A stretch of 34,904 nt of DNA from assembly GCF_900156105.1 (NCBI RefSeq), contig NZ_FTMS01000020.1:1-34904 (forward strand), written 5' to 3'. Position numbers and translations under genes: made by a program. Below, one piece after another: positions 24 through 32,766 of the stretch; the stretch's first letter is position 1; the number at the start of each line of letters is the position of its first letter. This DNA comes from Alkalispirochaeta americana (lineage in GTDB: Bacteria; Spirochaetota; Spirochaetia; DSM-27196; Alkalispirochaetaceae). The notes under the pieces were generated by a model that worked only from the letters and a program-made list of their open reading frames with translations, had not been told where the DNA came from and made no database searches.

Positions 24-425
24 TCACAGGAAACCAGGCGCCTGATCCATCAAAGAGCGGCGTAATTCAGGTGACTTCTTTGTTGACAAACACCGGAATG
101 TCGACGAACTGGGTACGACCGTAAATCCGCATATGTGGCGCAGCGATGAATCACCTCGCAAGCGGTCAACCAAAGATGTTGTCGTTTCAATCTGGAAAAA
201 CGATTTGGCCATAAACGCCCGAATTATTGCGATGTCATCGTGCGGTCTGCGACCCCGGCCACGATAGCTGGAGGCAACAGCAGGAAAATGCTCTTCGGCA
301 ATTCGTAACACATGCAGGAAGGCTCGATGCTTCATGGTCAGGTACTCTTCAAAAGAATCCTGAATATCAAAAGAGATATCGAAAAGAATCTGTGCACCAC
401 CAATAATTTCTGTTATACTTTTCAT
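24..425 (-). pseudogene. N-terminal remnant of an IS transposase (DUF772-type)
   Basis: The 133-residue minus-strand frame has the look of the N-terminal helical region of IS1182/IS5/IS4-like transposases: a basic RGRGRRP stretch, then DDIAIIRAFMAKSFFQIETT and a DRLRGDSSLRHICGF segment, as in the DUF772 domain that precedes the DDE catalytic domain. It stops at an in-frame TGA near the window edge, long before any catalytic residues, so it is a fragment or is broken by an early stop; what lies left of base 1 cannot be seen. The ATG at 423-425 is followed upstream (rightward) by about 150 bp reaching a candidate element end at 560-578. The first ~30 codons are duplicated at 1223-1313. The family call is by eye; the fragment status is more certain. 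Confidence 0.6.
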
Positions 426-1494: not shown

Positions 1495-2547
1495 ATTACC
1501 AATCCTAACCTCCCTGAAAAGTTTCCCAACTTCGTTCTCTTTAAAACTGCTGACGGCAAAGTCAATATCGATGTCTATTTTCATGATGAAACACTCTGGC
1601 TGACCCAGAAACTGATTGCTGAGCTGTTCGGAAAAGGGCGATCCACTATCACCGAGCACCTGAAAAACATTTTTGCCGAGGGCGAACTACAAGAAGAACT
1701 GGTGTGTCGGAAATTCCGACATACCACTGACCATGGGGCAATAGAAGGCAAAACTCAACAAAAAGAGGTTCTTTATTACAATCTTCGGGCCATTACCGCT
1801 GTGGGCTACCGGGTCAATTCGCACCGGGCGACGGAGTTCCGCAAATGGGCTACCGAGATTCTGCATGAATACATCATCAAAGGTTTTGCCATGGATGATG
1901 AACGCCTCAAGCAAATCAAGCACTTTGGGCAGGATTACTTCGATGAGCTTCTGGAACGCATTCGAGAAATCCGCCTCAGTGAACGCAGACTTTATCAGAA
2001 GGTTACGGATATCTATGCCCTTTCCGCTGATTATGACCGCAATGACAAAACCACCAAAGAGTTTTTTGCCACCGTGCAAAACAAAATGCACTGGGCTATT
2101 CAGGGTAAAACTGCCGCAGAAATCATCTATACCGAAGCCGACGCGCAAAAGCTCTACATGGGACTAAAGACCTGGAAAAATGAGCCCAGCGGGAAAATTC
2201 TGAAATCCGATGTGACCATCGCGAAGAACTATCTCAATCAGGAACATCTCAAAGAGTTGGAACGAATCGTCTCAGCCTACCTGGACTTGGCCGAAAACCG
2301 CGCTCGCCGAGGCATAGTGACGAACATGAAAGACTGGGTGCAATTTTTGGACAAATTCCTGGCTCTTTCAGATTATCCCATTCTGCTGGACAAAGGTGAA
2401 ATCTCAGCTCTGGAAGCAAAAATCAAAGCTGAAGGCGAATATGATAAATTTCGGATTATTCAGGATAAACAGTACATTTCCGACTTTGACGAAGAAGTCA
2501 GGAAACTAATTGGAAAAGATACAGGCGGTAACAATGACGACAACTAA
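1495..2547 (+). CDS. rhuM: RhuM-family protein, copy 2, with apparent ATT start
   Basis: A 350-residue frame of the Virulence_RhuM family. It shows FPNFVLFKTADGKVNIDV, the ETLWLTQKLIAELFGKGRST DNA-binding-like segment, HLKNIFAEGEL, the HGAIEGKTQQKEVLYYNL core, GYRVNSHRATEFRKWAT, KGFAMDDERLKQ, VQNKMHWAIQGKTAAEIIY, and the C-terminal region with DWVQFLDKFLALSDYPIL. No ATG, GTG or TTG precedes GTG 1702, which would lose the conserved N-terminus. A strong AAGGAGG (1482-1488) sits six bases before ATT 1495, followed by ACC AAT CCT, so the start is either a rare ATT or a mutated ATG. The stop overlaps the hsdR start by 14 nt, the usual coupling in type I restriction operons. Expression is probably weak if the start is really ATT. 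Confidence 0.75.
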   Translation: MTNPNLPEKFPNFVLFKTADGKVNIDVYFHDETLWLTQKLIAELFGKGRSTITEHLKNIFAEGELQEELVCRKFRHTTDHGAIEGKTQQKEVLYYNLRAITAVGYRVNSHRATEFRKWATEILHEYIIKGFAMDDERLKQIKHFGQDYFDELLERIREIRLSERRLYQKVTDIYALSADYDRNDKTTKEFFATVQNKMHWAIQGKTAAEIIYTEADAQKLYMGLKTWKNEPSGKILKSDVTIAKNYLNQEHLKELERIVSAYLDLAENRARRGIVTNMKDWVQFLDKFLALSDYPILLDKGEISALEAKIKAEGEYDKFRIIQDKQYISDFDEEVRKLIGKDTGGNNDDN

Positions 2548-3029: not shown

Positions 3030-3836
3030 ATGGGAGTTCGGGGAGAGTTGTTTTCTGCCCGGGTGCGCAGCAATAATGATCGGCGCACCTATTTTTTTAA
3101 TATCAAGGAAAACAGGAATAAAGATCTGTTTCTCACGATAGTCGAGAGCAAGAAGCAGGATTCGGGTGAAGAATTCGAGCGTCACCAGGTGGTGGTTTTC
3201 GAGGATGATTTTCATCTTTTTGGCAAGGGCATGGAGCGGGTCATGGAGTTTCTTCGGGAGCATCGTGGCAAGTCGGAAGTAAAACGGTGGGAGCGCCCTG
3301 CGGAAACCCGGGAAGAACGGGATGATTTCTCACGGCGGGACAACGATTCGCGCCCGCCCCGCAGGCCCTACGGCGATCAGGGCGATCACCGGGACCGGCC
3401 ACGGCGGGACAACGATTCGCGCCCGCCCCGCAGACCCTACGGCGACCAGGGGGATCACCGGGACCGGCCACGGCGGGACAACGATTCGCGCCCGCCCCGC
3501 AGACCCTACGGCGACCAGGGCGATCACCGAGACCGGCCGCGGCGGGACAACGATTCGCGCCCGCCCCGCAGACCCTACGGCGACCAGGGCGATCACCGGG
3601 ACCGGCCGCGGCGGGACAACGATTCGCGCCCGCCCCGCAGGCCCTACGGCGACCAGGGCGATCACCGGGACCGGCCACGGCGGGACAACGATTCGCGCCC
3701 GCCCCGCAAGCCCTACGGCAAGCAGGGTGACCGGCCCCGGCCGCGGCGGGACAACGACTCCCGTCCGCCCCGTAAGCCCTACGGCAAGCAGGGTGACCGG
3801 CCGCGCCGGGACGGCGAAGATCGCCGGGAAGATTAG
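3030..3836 (+). CDS. PUR-domain ssDNA/RNA-binding protein with long repeat tail (BpuR-like)
   Basis: Residues 1-80 (MGVRGELFSARVRSNNDRRT, TYFFNIKENRNKDLFLTIVESK, VVVFEDDFHLFGKGMERVME) match the small PUR-domain proteins (DUF3276 type) of spirochaetes and Bacteroidetes; the Borrelia member BpuR binds RNA and DNA. Usual family members are little longer than this domain. Here residues ~102-258 form a tail of five identical 23-residue units beginning RRDNDSRPPRRPYGDQ plus two shortened variants, rich in Arg, Asp, Pro and Gly, with no hydrophobic core, so almost certainly disordered. Such RG/RD-rich tails usually strengthen RNA contact or self-association; that is inference here. ATG 3030 has AGGAG six bases upstream. 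The stop overlaps the stop of the convergent rnhB gene by four bases. Confidence 0.85.
   Translation: MGVRGELFSARVRSNNDRRTYFFNIKENRNKDLFLTIVESKKQDSGEEFERHQVVVFEDDFHLFGKGMERVMEFLREHRGKSEVKRWERPAETREERDDFSRRDNDSRPPRRPYGDQGDHRDRPRRDNDSRPPRRPYGDQGDHRDRPRRDNDSRPPRRPYGDQGDHRDRPRRDNDSRPPRRPYGDQGDHRDRPRRDNDSRPPRRPYGDQGDHRDRPRRDNDSRPPRKPYGKQGDRPRPRRDNDSRPPRKPYGKQGDRPRRDGEDRRED
3333..3803. repeat. 69-bp tandem repeat in the PUR-protein tail
   Basis: Five 69-bp units start at 3333, 3402, 3471, 3540 and 3609; two variants of 66 and 60 bp follow at 3678 and 3744. The units are almost identical at the DNA level, with only scattered synonymous changes (for example AGA/AGG, GAT/GAC), which points to recent expansion. 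The array also creates long spurious frames on both strands. Confidence 0.95.
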
Positions 3837-4492
3837 GCCAGGACGCCTCTGAACGATCGACGATGGATCGGGCAGGGGCCGTGGCGGACCAGGGCCTCTT
3901 TGTGGTTTTTTGTGGGGTATCCCTTGTGCCGGGCAAAGCCGTAGCGGGGGTCCCGGCTATCGTAGTCTTCCATCCAGGAATCTCGTTCGGTCTTGGCAAT
4001 AATTGAGGCGGCCATGATCTCCCGGTAGAGGTTGTCCCCTCCCACAACTGCCCGGACCGGCAGCGAAAGCCCCGGTGGCATGGGGAGCTCCGGGGGCACA
4101 TGAGGCCCGTCCACAAGAATCGCTCGTAGATGCGGAGCCTCGCCCGGCGGGCAACTATCAAGAAGCAAAAGCAAATCCTCCCAGGCCCGGCGCATCGCCA
4201 GAAGCGACGCATGGTGAATGTTCAGCCTGTCGATCTCTTCGGGCCACACCCAGCCCCGACCTATCCATGCGCCCCCTGAAATCAGAATATCCCGGAGAGA
4301 TGCTCTCTTTTTCGGAGAAAGCGCCTTGGAATCAGCCAGCCCTGGAACCTCCATCCGGGGCGGCAGCACCACGGCAGCGGCCGTTACCGGGCCGGCCAGA
4401 GGGCCCCGTCCGGCCTCGTCTATACCGCACGCCCCCGGAACAGGGGGGGGGTGGGCTTGATTCTTCTTCTTTTGTCCGGCCATGATAGTCAA
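3833..4492 (-). CDS. rnhB: Ribonuclease HII
   Basis: RNase HII removes RNA from RNA-DNA hybrids, including single ribonucleotides in DNA. The 219-residue product has the family motifs in order: GIDEAGRGPLAGPV (first catalytic Asp and Glu), LADSKALSPKKR, AILVDG, GDNLYREIMAASIIAKTERD (third catalytic region) and YGFARHKGYPTKNH. Length fits the family. The start could be the ATG at 4490-4492 or the one three codons later (MAGQKKK); the extra N-terminal residues are a lysine- and proline-rich lead. The gene converges on the PUR-protein gene (stop overlap 4 nt) and its 5' end is divergent from smc, with only ~33 bp between the two starts, so the promoters must overlap. Confidence 0.95.
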   Translation of the reverse strand: MTIMAGQKKKNQAHPPPVPGACGIDEAGRGPLAGPVTAAAVVLPPRMEVPGLADSKALSPKKRASLRDILISGGAWIGRGWVWPEEIDRLNIHHASLLAMRRAWEDLLLLLDSCPPGEAPHLRAILVDGPHVPPELPMPPGLSLPVRAVVGGDNLYREIMAASIIAKTERDSWMEDYDSRDPRYGFARHKGYPTKNHKEALVRHGPCPIHRRSFRGVLA

Positions 4493-4525: not shown

Positions 4526-7405
4526 GTGTTTCTGAAAAGTATCGACCTCTTTGGATTTAAATCGTTCGCAGAGAAAAGCCATATCCAGTTTACCGACGGC
4601 ATCTCGGCGCTTATCGGCCCGAACGGGTGCGGCAAGAGCAACGTCGTAGATGCTGTGAAATGGGTTTTGGGGGAGCAGGCCACAAAAAGTCTGCGGGCCG
4701 AGCGAATGGAAGATATCATCTTTAACGGGACCGACACCCGAAAACCCCTGAATGTGGCCGAGGTTACCTTGACCCTGGAAAACGATGGGGTCCTGCCCCT
4801 GGATTTCCCGGAAATCACCATACGCCGCCGCCTTTTCCGCAGTGGCGAGAGCGAGTACTTTGTGAACGGCGCTCCGGTAAAACTGCGGGATGTGCGGGAG
4901 CTCTTCTACGATACGGGAATCGGCAAGACAGCCTACTCGATCATGGAGCAGGGCAAGATTGATCAGATACTCTCCACTCGCCCTGAAGACAGGCGGGCAC
5001 TGTTCGAAGAAGCTGCGGGAATTACCCGCTACAAGATGCGGGGGCGCGAGGCGGACCGGAAGCTGGAACGAACCGAGGCAAACATGCACGAGGTTGATTC
5101 GGTCCTGACCGAGGTTCGCCGCAGTTACGATACCCTGAAACGCCAGGCAGAAAAGACCACCTCCTACCGGGCGCTCCGGGAAGAGCAGTTTAATCTTGAG
5201 GTGGACCTGCAGGTTGCACGATTGCTTCAGTACCGGGAGCAGGAGGAGCAGTTCCAGGAGCGCTCCGGGACAGCCCGGCAGGAGCGGGATAACCTGAAGC
5301 AGGCGATCGACGGCCTGAACGAGAAGCTTGAGAGCGAGCTTTCCCGGGTCAACTCCATGGAATCACGCCTGGTGGAGGTTCAAAAGCGCCTCTACGGACT
5401 GGAGCTCGAAAAAAGCTCCCGCACCGAGCGGATTGCTCTTATCAGAAATCAGCAGGCCCAGCTGGAGGACCAGATCGAGGCCGAGCGGGGGCGCCTGAAG
5501 GGGCTTTCCCGCAAGGCCGAGGAGCAGGAGCAGGCCGCTGCCACAGCAGAGCGGTCCGAGGAGGAGACGCGCCTCCAGATCAGCGAGGTGGACAAGACCG
5601 TTGCGACAGTCCAGGACCGGATTGCCCGGAGCCAGGAGCGCCAGAAAGAGGCCCGGGAGCAAATTCGTCAGGCGGAACAGACCATCACAGCCAACGAGCG
5701 CAGCGTGACGGAGTGCCAGAAAGAACTGCGGGCCGTTACCGACGAGCTTGTGGGAGCACTCGATACAAAATTGAAGGAATCGGGCTATTCCAGCGCTGAA
5801 CGGGCCCGCCACGAAGAAACCCTGAAGGCCGCTCTGGACCAGATGGAAATCACTCTTCGGGGTCGCCGGGAGGCGTTGCAGGATCATCTGCGTCTTGGCG
5901 GGGTGGAAGAGCGCAGGGCAGCGGCGGAACAGGCCTTTTCTGCCCTGGAAGAGGCTCTGGGGGCTCTCTCGGAGGCTGTCGAGCGCTACCAGGGGGCGAT
6001 CCCCCGGTTTCTCGACGACTTTCTTGCTCCCGAGGGAACCATGACCCGCAAGCGGTCGCTCGATGACAACGTAGAAAAGCTCCAGGAGGCAAACCGGGGG
6101 CTGCGCGAAAAAATCCGGGATCTCAACGAGGAGATCCAGGCCTTGCAGCAGACCATCGATACCGAGCGGGAAAACCTGGAGCAGATGAAACTCAACCGGG
6201 TCCAGCTGGAAAACCGTGCCGGTGCTCTCCTTGAGGCCGCGCGCCGGCATCGCCGCGAAATGGAAGAGACCCGGCGTCACCAGAAAGAGCTGGAAACGCG
6301 GATCGAGGGTGATCAGCGCAGGGCCCGGGAGCTGGAAGGCCAGACGGTGGCTCTTCAGAAAGAACACGACGATCTGGCCCGGCAGGAGCAGGAGCTGCGA
6401 CAGGAACTGAAGCGGCTTGAGCAGGATATTGCGGGGAACAACAAAAGCCTCCAGGCCGAGGAGGAAAAACTTCGCCGGTCCATGCAGGCTCTGGCCCAGG
6501 CCCAGTCAAAACTGGAGGGGCTTCAGGTAAAGCTTGCCGAGAAACGCACCGAGGTCCGGGGCCTCTATGACAGCTTTTCCGAACGTCACGGCCGCGATCT
6601 GAGAGAGTTCGAGGGGCGGCAACCCTCCTTCGAAGGCGATCAGAAACAGCTCCGTGACGAAATGACCCGCGTTCGGGGGGAGCTCAAGGAATTGGGAAGC
6701 GTGAACCTCATGGCCGTTGAGGAGTTTGCCGAAGTCTCGGATCGCTACGAGTTCCTTTCAGGGCAGCTTGCAGACCTCAGGACCGCCCGGGACGATCTTG
6801 TCCGCGTTACGGCGGAGATTCGTCGGGAATCGCAGCAACTCTTTGTGGAGACCTACAACCGGGTCCGGAAAAACTTTCATACCATCTTCCGTCGCCTCTT
6901 CGGGGGAGGCCGGGCGGAGTTGCGCCTGATTGATCCGGATAACGTTCTCGATTCCGGTATCGATATTCTGGTTCAGCCCCCGGGAAAAAAGCTGGAAAGT
7001 ATTACCCTTCTCTCGGGAGGGGAGCGAAGCCTGACGGCGGTAGCCTTGCTCTTCGCGACTTTCATGGTCCGTCCTGCCCCCTTTACGCTCCTTGACGAGA
7101 TCGATGCAGCCCTGGACGAGCATAACGTGGGGCGCTTTGTGAATATGCTCCACGAGTTCTCTGAGCAGTCTCAGTTTATCGTGATCACCCATAACAAGAA
7201 GACCGTGGCAGGCGCAAACACCCTCCTGGGTGTAACCATGCAGGAAAGTGGAGTGAGCCAGATCGTCGCCTTGCGGATCGATGGCCAGGACGGGAAACAG
7301 GGCCAGAAGGGAAAACCGGGCCAGGATGAGACTGACGACAGGGCACAAGCCGGCGATCAGAACGACCAGGAGCCTCAGCTGGCCCTGGACGACACAAAGG
7401 AGTAG
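4526..7405 (+). CDS. smc: Chromosome segregation protein SMC, short and without a visible hinge
   Basis: SMC ATPases organise and segregate chromosomes as part of condensin. The N-terminal head has GPNGCGKSN (Walker A, residues ~31-39) and the C-terminal head has LSGGERSLTAVALLFA (signature, ~829) and FTLLDEIDAALDEHNVGRF (Walker B, ~853). The start is GTG 4526 with GGGAG upstream; longer frames to 4451 lack family sequence. The product is ~959 residues against about 1150-1190 for typical bacterial SMC. Between two long coiled coils (~165-485 and ~515-760) there is only a short non-coil segment, GAIPRFLDDFLAPEGTMTRK near residue 490, and nothing like the usual ~150-residue hinge with its glycine motifs. 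The tail after the Walker B head is hydrophilic and acidic. The downstream gene follows after nine bases. Confidence 0.95.
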   Translation: MFLKSIDLFGFKSFAEKSHIQFTDGISALIGPNGCGKSNVVDAVKWVLGEQATKSLRAERMEDIIFNGTDTRKPLNVAEVTLTLENDGVLPLDFPEITIRRRLFRSGESEYFVNGAPVKLRDVRELFYDTGIGKTAYSIMEQGKIDQILSTRPEDRRALFEEAAGITRYKMRGREADRKLERTEANMHEVDSVLTEVRRSYDTLKRQAEKTTSYRALREEQFNLEVDLQVARLLQYREQEEQFQERSGTARQERDNLKQAIDGLNEKLESELSRVNSMESRLVEVQKRLYGLELEKSSRTERIALIRNQQAQLEDQIEAERGRLKGLSRKAEEQEQAAATAERSEEETRLQISEVDKTVATVQDRIARSQERQKEAREQIRQAEQTITANERSVTECQKELRAVTDELVGALDTKLKESGYSSAERARHEETLKAALDQMEITLRGRREALQDHLRLGGVEERRAAAEQAFSALEEALGALSEAVERYQGAIPRFLDDFLAPEGTMTRKRSLDDNVEKLQEANRGLREKIRDLNEEIQALQQTIDTERENLEQMKLNRVQLENRAGALLEAARRHRREMEETRRHQKELETRIEGDQRRARELEGQTVALQKEHDDLARQEQELRQELKRLEQDIAGNNKSLQAEEEKLRRSMQALAQAQSKLEGLQVKLAEKRTEVRGLYDSFSERHGRDLREFEGRQPSFEGDQKQLRDEMTRVRGELKELGSVNLMAVEEFAEVSDRYEFLSGQLADLRTARDDLVRVTAEIRRESQQLFVETYNRVRKNFHTIFRRLFGGGRAELRLIDPDNVLDSGIDILVQPPGKKLESITLLSGGERSLTAVALLFATFMVRPAPFTLLDEIDAALDEHNVGRFVNMLHEFSEQSQFIVITHNKKTVAGANTLLGVTMQESGVSQIVALRIDGQDGKQGQKGKPGQDETDDRAQAGDQNDQEPQLALDDTKE

Positions 7406-7414
7406 CGGGGTGTC

Positions 7415-7753
7415 ATGAAATCGACCTTGGTTCCCGCCCTTGCTGGCGGAGGAGTTTTTTTAGCCCTCTTGCTTCTGTTTTTTCTTGTCTTCTCGGGCCG
7501 CAGCGAGGGGCTCGGGGAAGACGATTCGCTGTCGAGTTTCTATTCCCGGGAGTTGATGCTCCCCCAGCGGCGGTATCTGGTTCCGCCGGTAGAGCAGGAT
7601 CTGCTCTATCCGGGGTTGCGCTACAAGGTAGATCCTCGCATGCCCCTGGATGCGGAGATTCTTTCCGAGGCCGAAGAGGATTTGCTCGGCGCCCTGAGGC
7701 GGGAGTTTCTCAAGCGGGGTGAGAGCCATGTGGAGCAGCTCCTTTTTGATTGA
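7415..7753 (+). CDS. Small single-pass membrane protein, unknown function
   Basis: A 112-residue product with one strong N-terminal membrane segment (ALAGGGVFLALLLLFFLVFS) and a ~80-residue charged outer part containing RYLVPPVEQDLLYPGLRYK and a helical end (ILSEAEEDLLGALRREFLKR). It starts ten bases after the smc stop and its 3' end overlaps the next gene, so it is probably co-transcribed with smc and the lipoprotein gene. Codon use resembles its neighbours. I do not recognise the family. Confidence 0.7.
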   Translation: MKSTLVPALAGGGVFLALLLLFFLVFSGRSEGLGEDDSLSSFYSRELMLPQRRYLVPPVEQDLLYPGLRYKVDPRMPLDAEILSEAEEDLLGALRREFLKRGESHVEQLLFD

Positions 7754-9119
7754 TCGCCTGAAGCACAATCGTGGAAAACGCCCCCGGGTTTCTGTCCGGA
7801 GGCCGGTGGTCACGATTCTTCTGCTGGCAGGGTTGGTCCCGGTGTTTCTTGCGGGGTGTCAGACCGGCGTGCCCTCCCGGGAGGATCCTCCCGGCCAGGA
7901 CCTTCGGGATGCGTCCCGGGATCCTGTTGGTCTCCCATCGTCGGAGAGTGATTCCGATGTGCCCCAGGAGCAGCCCGATTCACCGGAACCGGCTCAGGAT
8001 GTTCTCCAGGCAGATGTCTTTCTTGTGCCCGACGATGCCAGACCAGGCGATGTCGGGCGCGACTCCGCCTGGTCCGATGAGGGGCTTCTTTTTGAATCTT
8101 CTGCTTTGCCCCTGCCGCTGCCTCCCCCGGCTGTTTTTTCGCTGGCAGATAGGGTGATTCCTGGTCCTGCCGCACCGCCTGTGGGGGATGGAATAGCAGC
8201 TCTCCCGCTTCCCGAGCTGCCTCCGGGGGATCCCCTCCCGGAGATCCTGGATCATCAGAGTCTGTCAGAGTCGCCGGAGCCGGAGCCAGAGTCAGAGCCG
8301 GAGCCACCACAGCCAGCACCAGCACGGCCAGCGTCGCCAACACCAGCACCACCACAGCCAGCACAGCCAGAGCCAGCACAGCCAGCACCAGCACGGCCAG
8401 CGTCGCCAACACCAGCACCACCACAGCCAGCGTCGCCAACACCAGCACCACCACAGCCAGCGTCGCCAACACCAGCACCACCACAGCCAGCGCCTCGGGA
8501 GCAAGAAGTTTCCCCGGGATCGCTCCTGGTTCTGCTCCTTCCTGGCAGGACCTGGTTGTATCGCGAGAGCACACCGCCCCTTCGCCTGGTGAGAAGAGAG
8601 GGCGAGGGCCGCCAAACCCGCTTTACCTTTCAAGTGCCCGACTCTGTCGAGGTCGGCGAAGATCTGGTGATCGCCTTCGCCATGCAGGACCTCTCCACGG
8701 GAGAATCGGTCGTCAAGGAACGGCGTCTGCAGGTTGTCCCGCCTCCGGAAGAGACTCCCCGCATTGATCTCTCGTCCCTGCCGGCGCCCGAGCCATCGGA
8801 TTCTGCTGTGCCGGAAGGTGCCGGCGAGAGGGACTCCGATGGAAGAGCTCTTTCCCTGGAAGCAGCGCCTTCGGCAGGAGATGCTCTCCGGAATGAGAGG
8901 GCAGACGTGCAGGGTTCCTCCGGGAGCGATCAGGCCCTTTCGGACCACGAGCTCTATCGAAAGGCCCGGCTCTATGAGTCTCCGGGGCCGGAACGGGATC
9001 TGGTTCGGGCACGGCGGCTCTATGCCGAACTTCTTCGGGACCACCCCTTGAGCGACCACTGGGATGATGCCAAGGTCCGTCTGGAGTTCCTGGAGCGGCA
9101 TTTCTTTCACCTCCGCTGA
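7728..9119 (+). CDS. Proline-rich lipoprotein with C-terminal helical repeat, unknown function
   Basis: The N-terminus carries a basic region, a hydrophobic stretch (VVTILLLAGLVPVFLAGC) and a lipobox LAGC, so the mature protein should be anchored by Cys44. A low-complexity part follows with glutamate/proline and PASPTPAPPQ repeats (DNA 8270-8496), then a beta-rich middle (SLLVLLLPGRTWLYRES, QTRFTFQVPDSVEVGEDLVI) and a C-terminal helical segment (YRKARLYESPGPERDLVRAR, RLYAELLRDHPLSDHWDDA) that looks like a tetratricopeptide-type hairpin, as in YbgF/BamD-like envelope proteins. GTG 7719 is an alternative start. It overlaps the preceding gene by 26 nt. A cell-envelope role spanning the periplasm is inferred from the lipobox and proline spacer; no function is known. 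Confidence 0.8.
   Translation: MWSSSFLIDRLKHNRGKRPRVSVRRPVVTILLLAGLVPVFLAGCQTGVPSREDPPGQDLRDASRDPVGLPSSESDSDVPQEQPDSPEPAQDVLQADVFLVPDDARPGDVGRDSAWSDEGLLFESSALPLPLPPPAVFSLADRVIPGPAAPPVGDGIAALPLPELPPGDPLPEILDHQSLSESPEPEPESEPEPPQPAPARPASPTPAPPQPAQPEPAQPAPARPASPTPAPPQPASPTPAPPQPASPTPAPPQPAPREQEVSPGSLLVLLLPGRTWLYRESTPPLRLVRREGEGRQTRFTFQVPDSVEVGEDLVIAFAMQDLSTGESVVKERRLQVVPPPEETPRIDLSSLPAPEPSDSAVPEGAGERDSDGRALSLEAAPSAGDALRNERADVQGSSGSDQALSDHELYRKARLYESPGPERDLVRARRLYAELLRDHPLSDHWDDAKVRLEFLERHFFHLR
8270..8496. repeat. Proline/alanine-coding imperfect repeats
   Basis: About 230 bp of CCA/GCA/CAG-rich sequence. A 30-bp unit encoding PASPTPAPPQ occurs four times, the last three in tandem, with a PAQPEPAQPAPAR variant between. 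It lies inside the lipoprotein gene and probably makes an extended spacer. Confidence 0.85.
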
Positions 9120-9240: not shown

Positions 9241-10575
9241 ATGTTGGACAGGCTGAGCGACAGATTAAACAACGTAGTACGAAGTGTCTCCGGAAAGAGC
9301 CGCATCACCGAGCAGAATATTGCTGATGCCGTGGAGGAGATCAAAGTCGCGCTTCTGGAAGCCGACGTAAATCTCAAGGTAGTCCGCCGCTTTGTGAGCC
9401 GTACGGTTCGGGAGGCCTCGGGTGAATCGGTGCTGCGCTCCGTTTCGCCGGGGCAGCAATTCGTCAAGGTCGTCTACGACAAGCTGGTGGAGTTCCTGGG
9501 GGACGAGCGGCAGGATCTCGCCCTGCGCGGTCCCGATGTCCCCAGTGTTATTCTTTTTGCCGGTCTTCAGGGATCGGGAAAAACAACCTCTGCGGCAAAG
9601 TTGGCCCTGCGGTTAAAGAAGGAGGGGCGGAGGCCCCTTCTTGTTGCTGCTGACCTGGTGCGGCCTGCCGCAGTTGACCAGTTGCAACAACTGGGCGAGC
9701 GGATCGGCATCCCTGTGGAGGCCATCCCTGGCAGCAAAGACCCCAAGGCTGTAGTTAAAGCGGGGTTGGCGCGGGCAAAGAAAGAGCAGCTCAACGTCGT
9801 TATCATCGATACGGCGGGCCGGATGCAGGTCGATGAAGCCCTGATGGAGGAGATTCGGCAGGTTTCTGCTCTGGCAAAACCCGACGAGCGAATCCTCGTG
9901 GCTGATGCCATGACGGGACAGAATGCGGTAGAGGTAGCCCGGGCGTTTCACGAGAGTGTGGATCTTACGGGGGTTATCCTCAGCAAGTTCGACAGTGATA
10001 CCCGGGGTGGGGCAGCGCTCTCCATCAAGACAATCGCAGGAACCCCGATCAAGTTCATCGGAACCGGTGAGGGCGTCGAGGATCTGGAACCCTTTTATCC
10101 CGAGAGGATTGCTTCCCGCATTCTCGGAATGGGTGATGTGGTCTCTCTTGTCGAGAAGGCCCAGGAGACGATCGGCGCCGATGATGCCGAGCGTTTGCAG
10201 AAGAAGATACGCTCCGCTACCTTTACCCTGGAAGATTACCTGGAGCAGTTCCAGCGGGTCCGGAAAATGGGTTCGGTTCAGTCGCTTCTGGAGATGATCC
10301 CGGGAATGAAGGGGAACATTGATCCCGATCAGCTTGATATGGATCAAATGAAGCGGGAGGAGGCGATTATCCTTTCCATGACCCGGGAAGAACGGCATAA
10401 TCACCGGATTATCGGTATGTCCCGACGGAAGCGTATCGCTGCCGGGAGTGGTTCCTCTGTTTTCGAGGTGGGCCAGCTGATAAAACGGTTTGACAAGATG
10501 CGGGCAATGATGAAGAAGGTTTCAAAGAACAAGAAGTACCAGTCCCAGCTGATGGCTCAGATGGGGCACCGGTAA
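9241..10575 (+). CDS. ffh: Signal recognition particle protein Ffh
   Basis: Ffh binds signal sequences and SRP RNA and delivers nascent membrane and secreted proteins to FtsY. The 444 residues show the N domain ([20 protein letters not shown]), the GTPase G domain with GLQGSGKTT (108-116), [15 protein letters not shown] and [12 protein letters not shown], and the methionine-rich M domain ([47 protein letters not shown]). The fourth GTPase motif reads SKFDSD rather than the common TKLDGD; base-binding Lys and Asp are kept. Length is normal. The Shine-Dalgarno is weak. First gene of the operon; rpsP begins 19 bases after its stop. Confidence 0.97.
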
Positions 10576-10594
10576 GATTCTGAGGAGGAAGTTC

Positions 10595-10849
10595 GTGAGT
10601 ACAAAAATTCGCCTGAAGCGATTCGGTTCCAAAAAACGTCCCTTTTACCGCATTGTGGTGATGGACAGCCGGGCTCCCCGGGATGGTCGGGCTCTGGAAG
10701 AAATTGGTGTGTACCATCCTATCGCGGCCGATGCCGAAGCTCAGGTTCGGTTCGACGAGGAGAAGGTCAAGGAATGGCTTCAAAAAGGAGCTCGTCCCAC
10801 CAACACCGTGCGCAAACTGTTGAACAACAATAACGTAACGGTGAAATAA
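10595..10849 (+). CDS. rpsP: 30S ribosomal protein S16
   Basis: 84 residues with the S16 pattern: [40 protein letters not shown], then a [20 protein letters not shown] end. S16 helps assemble the 30S subunit. The start is GTG 10595, preceded by GAGGAGG. It sits between ffh and khpA as in many bacteria, and is probably translated from the same transcript. Confidence 0.97.
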
Positions 10850-10876
10850 TTCGCCTCTCCAGGCAGGAGTAGTTTG

Positions 10877-11110
10877 GTGGAAAGAGATTTAGTTGAATAC
10901 ATCGCAAAGGCCCTGGTCGATGAGCCCGATGCGGTCGTGGTAAATCAGATCGAGGGTGAAAAATCAACGATTCTGGAGCTGAAAGTCAATCCCGATGATA
11001 TCGGGAAGGTTATCGGCAAGCACGGCCGGATCGCCAAATCGATCAGGACACTTCTGAGCGCAGCTTCCACGGGAACGGGGAAGCGGGTCGTTCTGGAAAT
11101 CCTTGACTGA
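10877..11110 (+). CDS. khpA: KH-domain RNA-binding protein KhpA
   Basis: About 77 residues: a short helical lead (ERDLVEYIAKALVDEPDAVV) and a single KH domain with the GKVIGKHGRIAKSIRTLL motif, the GxxG loop being GKHG. KhpA-type proteins bind RNA and, with KhpB, influence cell division and RNA turnover in other bacteria; their place between rpsP and rimM is conserved. The start is GTG 10877 or TTG 10874; AGGCAGGAG (10861-10869) fits the GTG better. The 3' end overlaps the longest rimM frame by eight bases. Confidence 0.92.
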   Translation: MERDLVEYIAKALVDEPDAVVVNQIEGEKSTILELKVNPDDIGKVIGKHGRIAKSIRTLLSAASTGTGKRVVLEILD

Positions 11111-11630
11111 TCGACAGGAGAGCGCCCTGGCCATGGTTGCCATCGGTGCTGTCCGTCGGCCCCATGGTGTGCGAGGCGCGGTCAAGGTTTTTTCCTTCTC
11201 CGGCGAGATCGCCCATTTTGAGGGATTGTCCCGGGTTGAGTTGCGGCGCAAGGATAAGGTTTGGTCTGCCAATGTGGAGAAGGTTCTTCTCCAGGGAGGC
11301 GTTCCTCTCCTCTGGTTTTCGGGGGTTACCACGCCGGAGCAGGCAAGGGATCTGGCGGGTGCCGAGATTTGGGTGCCCCGGGATCAGGCAGCTCCCTGCG
11401 GCAGTAATGAATACTACATTACCGACCTGGTGGGGATGACGCTCCTTTCCGGGGGTGATTCCTGCGGTGAGATCATTGCCGTCGTTGACGGCCTGCAGGC
11501 CCCGCTCCTTGAGGTGAAGCGTGAAACCGGAACGGTGTTGATCCCCTTCATGTCTCAATATGTGGGAGATGTTGACACCGAAAAACGAACAGTGGAGTTG
11601 CTGGTGCCGTGGCTGATGGATACGGAATAA
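11103..11630 (+). CDS. rimM: Ribosome maturation factor RimM
   Basis: RimM binds S19 and helps 16S rRNA maturation in the 30S subunit. The product has the N-terminal RimM motif (VAIGAVRRPHGVRGAVKV) and a C-terminal PRC-barrel (NEYYITDLVGMTLLSGGDSC, GEIIAVVDGLQAPLLEVKRE, LIPFMSQYVGDVDTEKR). The start is uncertain: TTG 11103 overlaps khpA and gives 175 residues, ATG 11133 gives 165 and begins exactly at the conserved region, but AGGAG lies 12 bases before it. Both lengths fit the family. trmD begins inside its 3' end. Confidence 0.95.
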   Translation: MTDRQESALAMVAIGAVRRPHGVRGAVKVFSFSGEIAHFEGLSRVELRRKDKVWSANVEKVLLQGGVPLLWFSGVTTPEQARDLAGAEIWVPRDQAAPCGSNEYYITDLVGMTLLSGGDSCGEIIAVVDGLQAPLLEVKRETGTVLIPFMSQYVGDVDTEKRTVELLVPWLMDTE

Positions 11631-12361
11631 CGGTTCTTACGCTCTTCCCCGAACTGGTGGAGGAGTACTTTCGCACCTCCATTGTGGGGAAGGCGGCTGA
11701 TCGCGGGGCCCTGATCCCGAAGGTGATAAACATCAGGGATTTTTCGCAGGACCGTCATCGCAGTTGTGACGACGCTCCCTACGGGGGTGGTGCCGGAATG
11801 GTTCTGATGGCGGAGCCTCTCGCAACGGCCCTTGATTCAGTTGACGCAAAGGCCCGACACGTGGTATTTCCCACACCGTCGGGGCGTCCCTTTCGTCAGC
11901 GCGACGCCCTCCGGCTCTCCCGGCAGAAGGAAATCGTCCTCATCTGCGGGCGCTACGAGGGGATCGATCAGAGGATCGTCGACGAATACGTGGACGAGGA
12001 GTTCACGATTGGTGATTACGTGCTCTCCTCGGGAGAGCTGGCGGCAATGGTGGTAATCGATGCGGTTTACCGATTGCGCGAGGGAATGTTGCGGCCCGAG
12101 AGCGTTCTGGAAGACAGTTTCCAGGATGGGTTGCTGGAACACCCTCATTATACACGGCCGGAGGTCTTTCGGTCCCGGAAGGTCCCGGAGATTTTGCTCT
12201 CGGGCCACCACGCCCGCATTGCCCAGTGGCGGCGGGAACAGCAGGTGATCAGGACGGCACGAAACCGCCCTGATCTTTTGCAGAACCTTTCGCTTACTGA
12301 AGCGGAACAGATACTGACGGAATCAATCCTGGAAAAGGAGTCGCACCATGGATGTAATTAA
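11609..12361 (+). CDS. trmD: tRNA (guanine-37-N1)-methyltransferase
   Basis: TrmD methylates G37 of tRNAs using S-adenosylmethionine, preventing frameshifting. The 250 residues carry [37 protein letters not shown], the cofactor-knot motifs [13 protein letters not shown] and [20 protein letters not shown], and the [20 protein letters not shown] segment with the conserved His-Tyr-Thr-Arg. The knot glycine usually in YVLSGGE is serine here. The start is GTG 11609, overlapping rimM by 22 nt. Its 3' end overlaps rplS by 14 nt. Confidence 0.97.
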
Positions 12362-27230: not shown

Positions 27231-28544
27231 ATGAGGAACAGAATGGGAAAACTTTTTTTGTTAGTTCTGACAATAGTTGTTTTTGCGGCGTGTAGTGGCA
27301 GAAATGAATCGACGGCGAGCGAGGGGCGGATTACCGTAGCTGCGCTGGAGTCTGCCTATGGATCTGATTTGTGGAAAGAGGTGACCGAGGCCTTCTCTGC
27401 AAAAACAGGAATAGAGGTTGAGCTTGTAATCGACAGAAACATTGAGGATGTTATCGCTCCGGGAATGCAGGCTGGCGATTTCCCCGACGTTATTCATCTG
27501 GCTACAGGACGGGAAAGAGCGCTCACTGAAACCATGATAAAAGAAGGCGCTCTGGAGCCGCTCACCGATATGCTGGCGATGGTTATTCCCGGCGAAAATG
27601 TCCGTGTGCGTGACAAGATAGCCGGTGGTTTCCTGGAATCATCACTTACAAACCCGTACAGCGACAGAAAAACCTATCTTGCCCCGATGTTCTACAGTCC
27701 CTGCGGTCTTTTCTACAATGCCAATTTGCTTAAGGAAAAAGGATGGGACCTCCCTTCCACGTGGGACGAAATGTGGGAGCTGGGTGACAAAGCCAGGGCC
27801 GAGGGAATAGCCCTGTTCGCATATCCCACGGCCGGATATTTTGATGCATTTTTCTATGCGCTTCTTTATGTGGTGGGCGGTGCAGATTTTTTTGACAGGG
27901 CAACAACATTCACTGAGGGCATATGGGAGACCGGGGAAGCACGCAAGATCTTCGACATAATCGAAACTCTGGCCTCCTATACCGAGAGATCGGTGCCGTC
28001 AAATGCCAACAGTGCAAATTTTACACGGAATCAGCAGCTTGTCCTGGATAACAAGGCAATTTTCATGCCCAACGGGACGTGGGTGACCGGAGAGATGCGG
28101 GATGCTCCCAGAGCAGAGGGGTTTGAGTGGGGTTTGACCGGCTTGCCAGCTCTCGAGACCGGGGGCGATTCTTATTCCTATACCTGGTTCGAGCAGGCCT
28201 GGATTCCTGCGGGCGCCCGGAACAAGGATGCAGCAAAAACCTTTCTGGCCTATCTCTACTCCGACGAGGCGGCAGCCATTTTCGCCCGGAGCAGTGCCTA
28301 TCAGCCGATTGTCGGTCTGGGCGATATGCTGGAAGGTGAAAACAGCCTCTTCTACAGCATCTATGACGGCGGCACAAAGGCTGCTCTGGGTGCCTTTGCC
28401 ACAACCGTCCCGGTCGAAGGGGTCACCGTCTATGACACCTTTTTTGCTCCTGTAGATTCACTCGTTAACGGAAGCAGGACAAGGGAGATGTGGGTTAACC
28501 AGATAAAGCGAAATAGTGATCTCTTAAGGGCTGCGTTAAAGTAG
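27231..28544 (+). CDS. Sugar ABC transporter solute-binding lipoprotein
   Basis: 437 residues of the family 1 extracellular solute-binding proteins. The N-terminus has a basic start, a hydrophobic stretch and a relaxed lipobox ending at Cys21 (VVFAACSG), so the protein is membrane-anchored outside the cell membrane. Family stretches: DLWKEVTEAFSAKTGIEVEL, GDFPDVIHLATGRERALTET, APMFYSPCGLFYNANLLKEK, LPSTWDEMWELGDKARAEG. The AGGAGG at 27215-27220 precedes ATG 27231. Neighbours (two permeases and a GH112 phosphorylase) suggest it binds lacto-N-biose, galacto-N-biose or a related disaccharide; that is inference. Confidence 0.92.
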   Translation: MRNRMGKLFLLVLTIVVFAACSGRNESTASEGRITVAALESAYGSDLWKEVTEAFSAKTGIEVELVIDRNIEDVIAPGMQAGDFPDVIHLATGRERALTETMIKEGALEPLTDMLAMVIPGENVRVRDKIAGGFLESSLTNPYSDRKTYLAPMFYSPCGLFYNANLLKEKGWDLPSTWDEMWELGDKARAEGIALFAYPTAGYFDAFFYALLYVVGGADFFDRATTFTEGIWETGEARKIFDIIETLASYTERSVPSNANSANFTRNQQLVLDNKAIFMPNGTWVTGEMRDAPRAEGFEWGLTGLPALETGGDSYSYTWFEQAWIPAGARNKDAAKTFLAYLYSDEAAAIFARSSAYQPIVGLGDMLEGENSLFYSIYDGGTKAALGAFATTVPVEGVTVYDTFFAPVDSLVNGSRTREMWVNQIKRNSDLLRAALK

Positions 28545-30591: not shown

Positions 30592-32766
30592 ATGAAGAGC
30601 GACACTACGATGGGGGGGCGGGTAACTATACCGACGGATGTTGATGTGGTTCCGGAAACACTCGAACTCATCAGACGATGGGGGGCCGATGCTGTTCGTG
30701 ATTGCGACGGCACCGATTATCCTGCCGGGCTGCGCGATCTGGATGCCAAAGTCTATAGCACCTACTACACCACGAGAAAGGACAATGAATGGGCGCTGGC
30801 CAACCCTGATGAGGTGCAGCAGTGTTACATCATGACCGGTTTCAGGACATCGCCGGGGGGAGAACTCCGTGTGGAGCTCATGCAGGGTATAGCCCAGGAA
30901 CTGCTCCGGGTAAATTCTCAGGATGATATCACCCGATGGTGGGAGGTGGTGGACCGAACCTCGGGATTACCTCTTCCCGCAAGCGACTGGTCCTATGAAG
31001 AGGAGACAGAAACGGTAATAATCAGGAACACTCGTGCTTTTCATGAGTATACCGTCAGTTTTCTTGCCTATATCATCTGGGATCCCGTCCACATGTATAA
31101 CGCCGTGGTCAATGAATGGAAAGATGTCGATCACCAGATAACGTTTGACGTGAGGCAACCGAAGACACGGGCCTACTCGATGAAGCGATTACGCAATTTT
31201 ATCGAGAACAATCCCCATGTCGATGTTATTCGGTATACAACGTTTTTTCACCAGTTTACCTTGATTTTTGATGACCTCCGCCGGGAAAAATATGTTGACT
31301 GGTATGGCTATTCTGCCTCGGTAAGCCCCTATATCCTCGAGAAATTTGAGCAGGAAGCCGGGTACCCCTTTCGGCCAGAGTTCATCATAGATCAGGGGTA
31401 TTATAACAACCAGTATCGGGTGCCGAGCAGGGAGTTTCTTGATTTTGTCGATTTTCAGCGCCGTGAGGTGGCAGAGCTGGCAAAAGAGATGGTGGATATA
31501 ACCCGCGAATATGGGAAAGAAGCCATGATGTTTCTCGGGGATCACTGGATTGGCACGGAACCATTTATGGACGAGTTTCAGAAGATCGGTCTTGATGCGG
31601 TTGTGGGAAGTGTAGGAAATGGTTCTACCCTGCGGCTGATCAGCGATATCAAGGGTGTAAAATATACCGAGGGCCGGTTTTTGCCCTATTTTTTCCCGGA
31701 CACATTTTATGATGGTGGAGATCCCGTTAGCGAGGCAAAAAATAACTGGGTTACAGCCCGCAGGGCTATACTCCGCAATCCCGTTGACAGGATAGGCTAC
31801 GGGGGATATCTCAAGCTGGCGTGCCAGTTCCCCGATTTCGTGGATTATGTTGAAAATGTTTGTAACGAATTTCGCCTGCTTTACCGCAATATCGATGGAG
31901 CGCAGCCATATTGTGCCAAAAAAGTTGCGATCCTGAACTGCTGGGGTCACATGCGCGCCTGGGGATGCCACATGGTTCATCACGCGCTTTACCAGAAACC
32001 GAATTACAGTTATGCCGGTGTTATTGAGAGTCTCAGCGGAGCCCCCTTCGACGTTGTCTTTCTCAGTTTTGATGATATCAGGAAGAACGAGAGGATTCTG
32101 GACGATGTTGATGTCATCATCAATTGTGGGGACGCAGATACGGCTCACACAGGTGGAGTGGAATGGGAAGATCCTCTGGTGACTTCACGAATAAAGCGAT
32201 TCGTCTATGAGGGCGGAGGTTTTATTGGTATAGGGGAACCAGGAGGTCACCAGTATCAGGGCAGGTTTCTGCAGGTTTCTGCAATTCTGGGTGTGGAAAA
32301 GGAAACGGGCTTCACCCTGGGATACGACAAGTACAACTGGGATCAGGACAAGGCGCATTTTATCATGGCCGATTCTTCTGATCTCTCGAGCTTTGGTGAA
32401 GGAAAGAAGGGCATGTATGCTCTCCCTGAGGCGACCGTGCTGGTTCAGGAGGATCGGGATGTCCAGCTGGCAGTGAACAGCTATGGCCAGGGGAGAGGCG
32501 TTTATGTCAGTGGTCTTCCCTATAGTTTTGAAAATACCCGCCTTCTGCACCGCTCGATTCTGTGGAGTTCCGGGGGCGAGGATGATTTGCTGGCCTGGTT
32601 CAGCTCGAACTACAACGTGGAGGTCCATGCTTTTCCGGAAAAAGGGAAGTATTGTGTGGTTAACAATACCTATGAACCGCAGAAGACAAGGGTTTACCGG
32701 GGGGATGGAACCTCGTTTGAACTGAATCTGGATGCCAACGCAATTTTGTGGTACGAAATCGATTGA
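30592..32766 (+). CDS. gnpA: GH112 galactosyl-N-acetylhexosamine (or related) phosphorylase
   Basis: 724 residues of glycoside hydrolase family 112. These cytoplasmic enzymes split beta-1,3-galactosyl-GlcNAc or -GalNAc (some members beta-1,4-galactosyl-rhamnose) with phosphate, releasing galactose-1-phosphate. Family features: GRVTIPTDVDVVPETLELIR with WGADAVRDCDGTDYP near the N-terminus, DVIRYTTFFHQFTLIFDD, the FLGDHWIGTEPF segment whose Asp317 corresponds to the general acid known in the bifidobacterial enzyme, and the second-domain stretches YEGGGFIGIGEPGGHQYQG and GQGRGVYVSGLPYSFENTRL. Length matches the family. ATG 30592 has GGGGGAG upstream. Which galactoside it prefers cannot be read from the sequence. 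Confidence 0.93.
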   Translation: MKSDTTMGGRVTIPTDVDVVPETLELIRRWGADAVRDCDGTDYPAGLRDLDAKVYSTYYTTRKDNEWALANPDEVQQCYIMTGFRTSPGGELRVELMQGIAQELLRVNSQDDITRWWEVVDRTSGLPLPASDWSYEEETETVIIRNTRAFHEYTVSFLAYIIWDPVHMYNAVVNEWKDVDHQITFDVRQPKTRAYSMKRLRNFIENNPHVDVIRYTTFFHQFTLIFDDLRREKYVDWYGYSASVSPYILEKFEQEAGYPFRPEFIIDQGYYNNQYRVPSREFLDFVDFQRREVAELAKEMVDITREYGKEAMMFLGDHWIGTEPFMDEFQKIGLDAVVGSVGNGSTLRLISDIKGVKYTEGRFLPYFFPDTFYDGGDPVSEAKNNWVTARRAILRNPVDRIGYGGYLKLACQFPDFVDYVENVCNEFRLLYRNIDGAQPYCAKKVAILNCWGHMRAWGCHMVHHALYQKPNYSYAGVIESLSGAPFDVVFLSFDDIRKNERILDDVDVIINCGDADTAHTGGVEWEDPLVTSRIKRFVYEGGGFIGIGEPGGHQYQGRFLQVSAILGVEKETGFTLGYDKYNWDQDKAHFIMADSSDLSSFGEGKKGMYALPEATVLVQEDRDVQLAVNSYGQGRGVYVSGLPYSFENTRLLHRSILWSSGGEDDLLAWFSSNYNVEVHAFPEKGKYCVVNNTYEPQKTRVYRGDGTSFELNLDANAILWYEID

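Follow-up and report, generated by a model that had tools for sequence, protein, structure and literature searches.

A chromosomal SMC protein without a recognisable hinge domain in Alkalispirochaeta americana and other Spirochaetota

Results

The smc locus

The window, that is, the whole 34,904-nucleotide stretch of Alkalispirochaeta americana DNA analysed here, carries a gene for a 959-residue SMC protein (Table 1). Its reading frame is open from 4451 to the stop codon at 7403-7405, and we assign the start to the GTG at 4526, which has GGGAG upstream and agrees with relatives whose N terminus is MFLKSLEIFGFKSFADR. The preliminary description had stated that the ATPase heads were intact, and this is borne out: both the N- and the C-terminal ABC ATPase halves are present, with Walker A, signature (LSGGE) and Walker B motifs that are invariant in relatives, and with the NCBIfam model SMC_prok_B (TIGR02168) the protein scores 848.7 bits, above the cut-off of 567.

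In Bacillus, smc lies in the order rnc-smc-ftsY-ffh-rpsP. The gene order around the present gene is as at canonical smc, e.g. in Bacillus velezensis, and is partly retained in related loci. Genes for ScpA and ScpB lie next to each other elsewhere in the genome (C2:181855-183096; E 6.7e-36 and 1e-54). On the basis of the SMC_prok_B score, the intact motifs, the smc-type neighbourhood and the presence of ScpA and ScpB, the product of 4526-7405 is, as judged from sequence, the orthologous chromosomal SMC by descent and no stray paralogue. Since the SMC_hinge domain (Pfam PF06470) that marks a canonical SMC is not found in it, we class the protein as a hinge-less variant: its ancestry is that of an SMC, but it is not a canonical one.

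Table 1. Features of the smc locus, in positions of the window; res, residues of the 959-aa SMC; AF2, AlphaFold2
Feature	Position	Strand	Remarks
rnhB (ribonuclease HII), smc neighbour	3833..4492	-	
Hinge-less SMC gene	4526..7405	+	959 aa, GTG start
Walker A GPNGCGKS	4616..4639	+	res 31-38, N-terminal head; invariant among relatives
N-terminal coiled-coil arm	5024..5779	+	res ~167-418
Conserved island 1 of collar	5726..5791	+	res 401-422; class consensus TDDIVxxLDxxLKEAGYS
Apical coiled-coil hairpin in the hinge's place	5792..5998	+	predicted helices 423-457 and 460-491; from AF2, coevolution, lengths
Conserved island 2 of collar	5999..6061	+	res 492-512; IPRFLDDFLAPEGTMTRKRSL
C-terminal coiled-coil arm	6038..6694	+	res 505-723
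ABC signature LLSGGE	7007..7024	+	res 828-833; from sequence and relatives
Walker B FTLLDEIDAALD	7082..7117	+	res 853-864; from sequence and relatives
ffh - rpsP - rimM - trmD, classical bacterial smc neighbourhood	9241..12361	+	

Absence of the hinge domain

SMC_hinge had no match in the 959-aa SMC and none anywhere in the 3.3-Mb genome, and positions 491-779 of TIGR02168 are represented by about 18 residues, in agreement with the original observation that no hinge was recognisable. As positive controls we used SMC genes on plasmid-collection records from Bacillus, Fusobacterium, Nonomuraea, Natronorubrum, two mycoplasmas and Neisseria; SMC_hinge was found at E 1e-22 to 1e-33 in the controls from Bacillota, Mycoplasmatota, Fusobacteriota, Actinomycetota and haloarchaea, and weakly, at 9e-5, in that from Neisseria. 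The length of about 959 residues that had been noted is correct but undiagnostic: the Mesomycoplasma SMC, at 976 aa, has a full hinge at 416-535, which rules out short total length as a sign of hinge loss. A profile of the spirochaete tip aligned to nine canonical hinges with a probability of 0.6%, a comparison to which we give little weight because the Neisseria hinge, a divergent single sequence serving as positive control, was likewise not recovered.

Other known tips were sought as well. No CxxC zinc hook occurs in residues 365-560, which contain a single Cys, and the RecN model scored 47.7 bits against the protein, below its cut-off of 407.85. The viral contigs that were searched yielded distant ATPases only.

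An all-helical tip with a conserved kink

A full-length AlphaFold2 model, built with 77 relatives, places helices at 269-418, 423-457, 460-491, 495-499 and 505-638, and the tip region contains no strand. Modelling of segment 365-560 alone gave helices only, at a mean pLDDT of 90.9, and neither prediction contains a strand within that segment; a normal hinge fold in the 380-560 region is not predicted. The suggestion of a minimal hinge of the MukB type is likewise at odds with a tip predicted to be entirely helical. Mean-field coevolution, computed from the same alignment (shallow, with Meff ~62), was enriched mainly on the antidiagonals i+j 904-927 (z up to 6.4), pairing arm with arm and also running inside the hairpin.

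That the tip is extended was deduced from its secondary structure, from the coevolution signal and from the kind of structural matches obtained. Taken as predictions, these support well a single coiled coil, continuous and antiparallel, that turns at an apex near residue 459. In this reading a kink, which we call the collar, lies about 40 residues below the apex, where 419-422 is opposite 492-504; the helix break at 419-422 falls within the first conserved island. The approximately 25 residues near position 490 (GAIPRFLDDFLAPEGTMTRK) that had been taken for the whole connection between the coils are therefore re-assigned as the C-strand half of the collar, with the hairpin 423-491 lying beyond them.

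Conservation peaks at the kink, at ~3.2 to 3.9 bits for 401-420 and 491-510 versus ~2 nearby, and T405, V409, L412, D413, L416, Y421, D497, P502, G504, K509 and R510 are invariant in 77 sequences. The apical hairpin (423-491, ~70 residues), in contrast, varies in length and sequence and is the least conserved part.

A tip in which the hairpin folds back onto the arms as a four-helix bundle was considered and rejected, there being no coevolution on the diagonals expected for it (i+j ~841 and 996) and no low-rmsd PDB match spanning the whole tip. Foldseek returned generic long-helix matches only for the tip model, with E no better than 5e-3, and VIA-align gave Z of at most 11.9, in a range that the tool describes as common for helical models; because the matches are generic long helices, we claim no family from the structure search. 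The collar was also considered as a relic of a hinge end and dismissed, the likeness being weak in class Spirochaetia and absent in the other classes.

Arm lengths and the position of the collar

To compare arm lengths, distances between homologous anchors were taken for 46 representatives. E161 to Y421 spans 260 aa in nearly all of the short-arm families sampled (range 257-260, with 257 in two), and G504 to G724 spans 215-221 aa in the short-arm families, whereas the cap from Y421 to G504 ranges from 56 to 96 aa across the representatives. The N arm, cap and C arm measure 220/56/192 in the Borrelia SMC and 347-348/58-62/294-339 in the long-arm families. Because the head-to-collar lengths are constant while the cap length varies, it is the collar and not the apex that, by sequence, keeps a constant distance from the heads, as would be expected of a hinge attachment point.

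In B. subtilis Smc, viability recurs with a period of 91 aa in arm length, and 238 is the reported mode among prokaryotic SMC arms (PMC5344682). The corresponding figures here are a mean arm length to the collar of ~240 and an N-arm step of 88; this agreement with the published arm rule is suggestive only, since the definitions of arm length differ. The constant collar distance (260 aa, and ~348 in the long-arm lineages) also offers a new natural data set for that rule (PMC5344682).

The long-arm hinge-less SMC proteins (L186-L195; families f22, f29, f32, f35 and f36) are 1069-1105 aa long; their arms hold ~88 extra residues on the N side and at least 74 on the C side, and most carry the collar motif.

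Occurrence in Spirochaetota

Two overlapping genome samples were examined, 150 genomes from the phylum and 297 from class Spirochaetia. SMC_hinge exceeded its cut-off in 1/150 and 3/297 of these, and every such match was the JetC protein of a Wadjet defence system rather than an SMC. Among control genomes from other groups 10-11 of 14 were positive; the silent ones (E. coli, Sulfolobus, Bacteroides and at times Caulobacter) indicate that the sensitivity of the model is imperfect. Absence of the hinge from SMC is thus well supported, at the level of sequence profiles, as phylum-wide within both samples, in keeping with the earlier suggestion of a feature common to the phylum. The SMC of Borrelia, the Lyme disease genus, is shorter still (818-821 aa), as the preliminary description had it. 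The simplest reading of this occurrence is that the hinge was probably lost in the ancestor of Spirochaetota. A generalised collar motif, [FY]xxx[LI][FLY]xxxG[IT]xxxK[REK], is found across the classes and is degenerate in Borrelia.

The type I Wadjet JetC proteins of a few Spirochaetia genomes (L119, L203, L204 and L208) have a hinge that SMC_hinge recognises. In four genomes that are 91-99% complete (G135, G011, G076 and G119, the last a member of the Borrelia-like family f6) a full SMC was not found, and the gene may have been lost, broken or missed.

Discussion

In the usual view the hinge defines how SMC proteins dimerise and may also serve as a DNA gate. A phylum that does without it, and that has kept ScpAB at least in the A. 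americana genome, constitutes a natural experiment on the role of the hinge, with the expectation that spirochaetes extrude loops but lack hinge-dependent bypass. We lean, by a modest measure, towards the explanation that this is an SMC of the Smc-ScpAB type in which two hinge-less molecules are joined at an all-helical tip to form a closed SMC-kleisin ring. The globular alpha/beta hinge would have been lost from the orthologous SMC of a Smc-ScpAB condensin, leaving head-proximal arms that run uninterrupted up to the kinked collar and a plain helical hairpin (423-491) as a cap. Dimerisation at the tip might proceed through packing of the collar, the hairpin or both, comparable with the apical helices of RecN, and the closed ring would still be able to extrude loops. 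With no hinge channel, hinge-dependent passage of DNA or of obstacles tethered by a single strand would be unavailable, and DNA would enter via the neck/kleisin side.

Other systems offer precedents, and function without the canonical hinge fold has been seen in the laboratory. B. subtilis Smc carrying the Rad50 zinc hook supports normal growth, and it has been called irrelevant for segregation which fold the dimerisation domain has (PMC5344682); a Wadjet complex lacking the segment from elbow to hinge extrudes if its ring is closed, although obstacle bypass is lost (PMC12647877); and in RecN three apical helices mediate dimerisation (PMC4255302). It is from these three cases that we infer closure of the spirochaete ring by packing of collar and cap. 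Weighing against a tip dimer, the hairpin is poorly conserved and would equally suit a passive cap or an interface, Borrelia has a degenerate form of the collar motif, and the conserved collar residues could be a partner- or DNA-binding site instead of a dimer contact.

The poorly conserved hairpin, varying from 56 to 96 residues, together with the absence of any known dimerisation domain would also suit an open clamp, in which ScpA and ATP-dependent engagement hold the SMC pair together at the heads alone and there is no permanent dimer at the tip; the long-range contacts without arm alignment that Borrelia Smc produces point the same way (PMC10406323). A free end, however, would need neither a nearly invariant collar nor its constant distance from the heads throughout the phylum, B. 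subtilis Smc is inactive once hinge dimerisation is lost (PMC5344682), and the Wadjet core ring stops extruding when opened (PMC12647877), so that we regard an open clamp as unlikely. The invariant charged residues D413, D497, K509 and R510 next to a G/P break resemble, in sequence, a binding site, and could mean that a separate protein clamps two collars in trans. No candidate for this role emerged: the ORF that follows smc (7415-7753) could be detected in only 2 of the 48 relatives eligible for the comparison, and the next one (7719-9119) gives partial matches and no family assignment, which leaves a trans clamp quite unlikely.

That a shrunken or divergent canonical hinge, a mini-hinge like that of MukB, escaped both the profiles and AlphaFold2 is in our estimate very unlikely. 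The collar sequence DEFLAPEGIIT does resemble the canonical hinge end GDVVNPGGSMT, with a median rank of 3 among windows of class Spirochaetia SMC, and the tools have their weaknesses, the hinge profile being weak on Neisseria and the hhalign test having failed the Neisseria positive control. Yet the collar scores ~1 bit versus 22-40 for real hinges and its median rank falls to 55 in other classes, the tip is predicted as all helix at pLDDT 91, and in several families Y421 and G504 are only 56-62 residues apart, where a hinge fold needs ~150. An artefact of sequencing, a frameshift or a pseudogene has practically no probability: nothing was found in its favour, the frame is intact without sign of an assembly deletion, and ~90 independent assemblies, complete chromosomes among them, share the architecture, with an almost invariant motif at this place.

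Returning to the closed ring with a helical tip, we extend it tentatively, at a little short of even confidence, to the phylum as a whole: an ancestral exchange of the hinge for a dimer tip made of helical collar and hairpin, after which Smc-ScpAB would load, extrude and segregate without a hinge gate or channel, and in which the missing hinge of Borrelia, beside its missing ScpB, may explain the unaligned chromosome arms. Deletion of smc in Borrelia reduces long-range contacts, and the chromosome arms there are unaligned (PMC10406323); because the deletion has this effect, the hinge-less Borrelia Smc is functional. The Hi-C study terms bb0045 a canonical Smc and ascribes the missing arm alignment to the missing ScpB, and it nowhere uses the word "hinge" (PMC10406323). 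We propose the missing hinge as a second, additional candidate cause.

Compared with the canonical bacterial SMC of B. subtilis Smc-ScpAB, the protein shares the head halves and their motifs, long antiparallel arms, ScpA and ScpB, and the smc-ffh-rpsP neighbourhood; it differs in having no SMC_hinge and in arms that end in a kinked collar and a helical hairpin, and the spacing from the EEAAG to the LGxVN anchor is 556 residues versus 815 in Bacillus. The sole precedent that we found for a natural hinge-less SMC is a marine cluster described from the ocean in 2025 and assigned to class Actinomycetes, in a report that does not mention spirochaetes (PMC12153180). It likewise combines SMC heads and arms with neither hinge nor zinc hook, but represents one environmental cluster of unknown host, whereas here the phylum is named, ScpAB is present, and the collar motif and arm lengths are defined. 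RecN is similar as an SMC-like ATPase with an all-helical tip (PMC4255302), but its arms are about a quarter as long and it belongs to another family. Rad50/SbcC and the archaeal ASRP (zinc hook) also have coiled-coil arms that do not end in an SMC hinge domain; the CxxC hook that they carry is missing from residues 365-560 of the spirochaete protein. Two engineered proteins, B. subtilis Smc(zinc hook) and Wadjet ecJET(core), are likewise SMC motors that work although the canonical hinge fold is missing (PMC5344682, PMC12647877); in these laboratory constructs the dimerisation device is known, while that of spirochaetes is natural and putative.

A search of the openly readable literature yielded no account of spirochaetes having lost the hinge. 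Earlier treatments of SMC evolution include Soppa 2001 and Cobbe and Heck 2004, and priority for describing the loss is uncertain.

Other features of the window

A gene at 3030-3836 (+) encodes a DUF3276 protein, which we take to resemble the PUR-domain nucleic-acid-binding protein of Borrelia; its tail consists of 6.8 tandem 69-bp repeats (3331-3793) that encode an Arg/Asp/Pro-rich unit (RRDNDSRPPRRPYGDQGDHRDRP). Two neighbouring RhuM-family copies lie at 458-1192 and 1702-2547 (+), of which the first covers no more than the N-terminal portion of the family, and beside them 24-425 (-) is a putative transposase remnant, judged by sequence alone. Just downstream of smc, the ORF at 7719-9119 encodes 466 aa with no Pfam match at E 0.1, includes low-complexity Pro/Ala/Ser/Thr repeats at 8296-8492 (+), and was matched by tblastn, weakly and over part of its length, in 19 related loci. 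Farther along the window, a lacto-N-biose phosphorylase gene occupies 30592-32766 (+), and upstream of it 27231-28544 encodes the solute-binding protein of a sugar-type ABC transporter.
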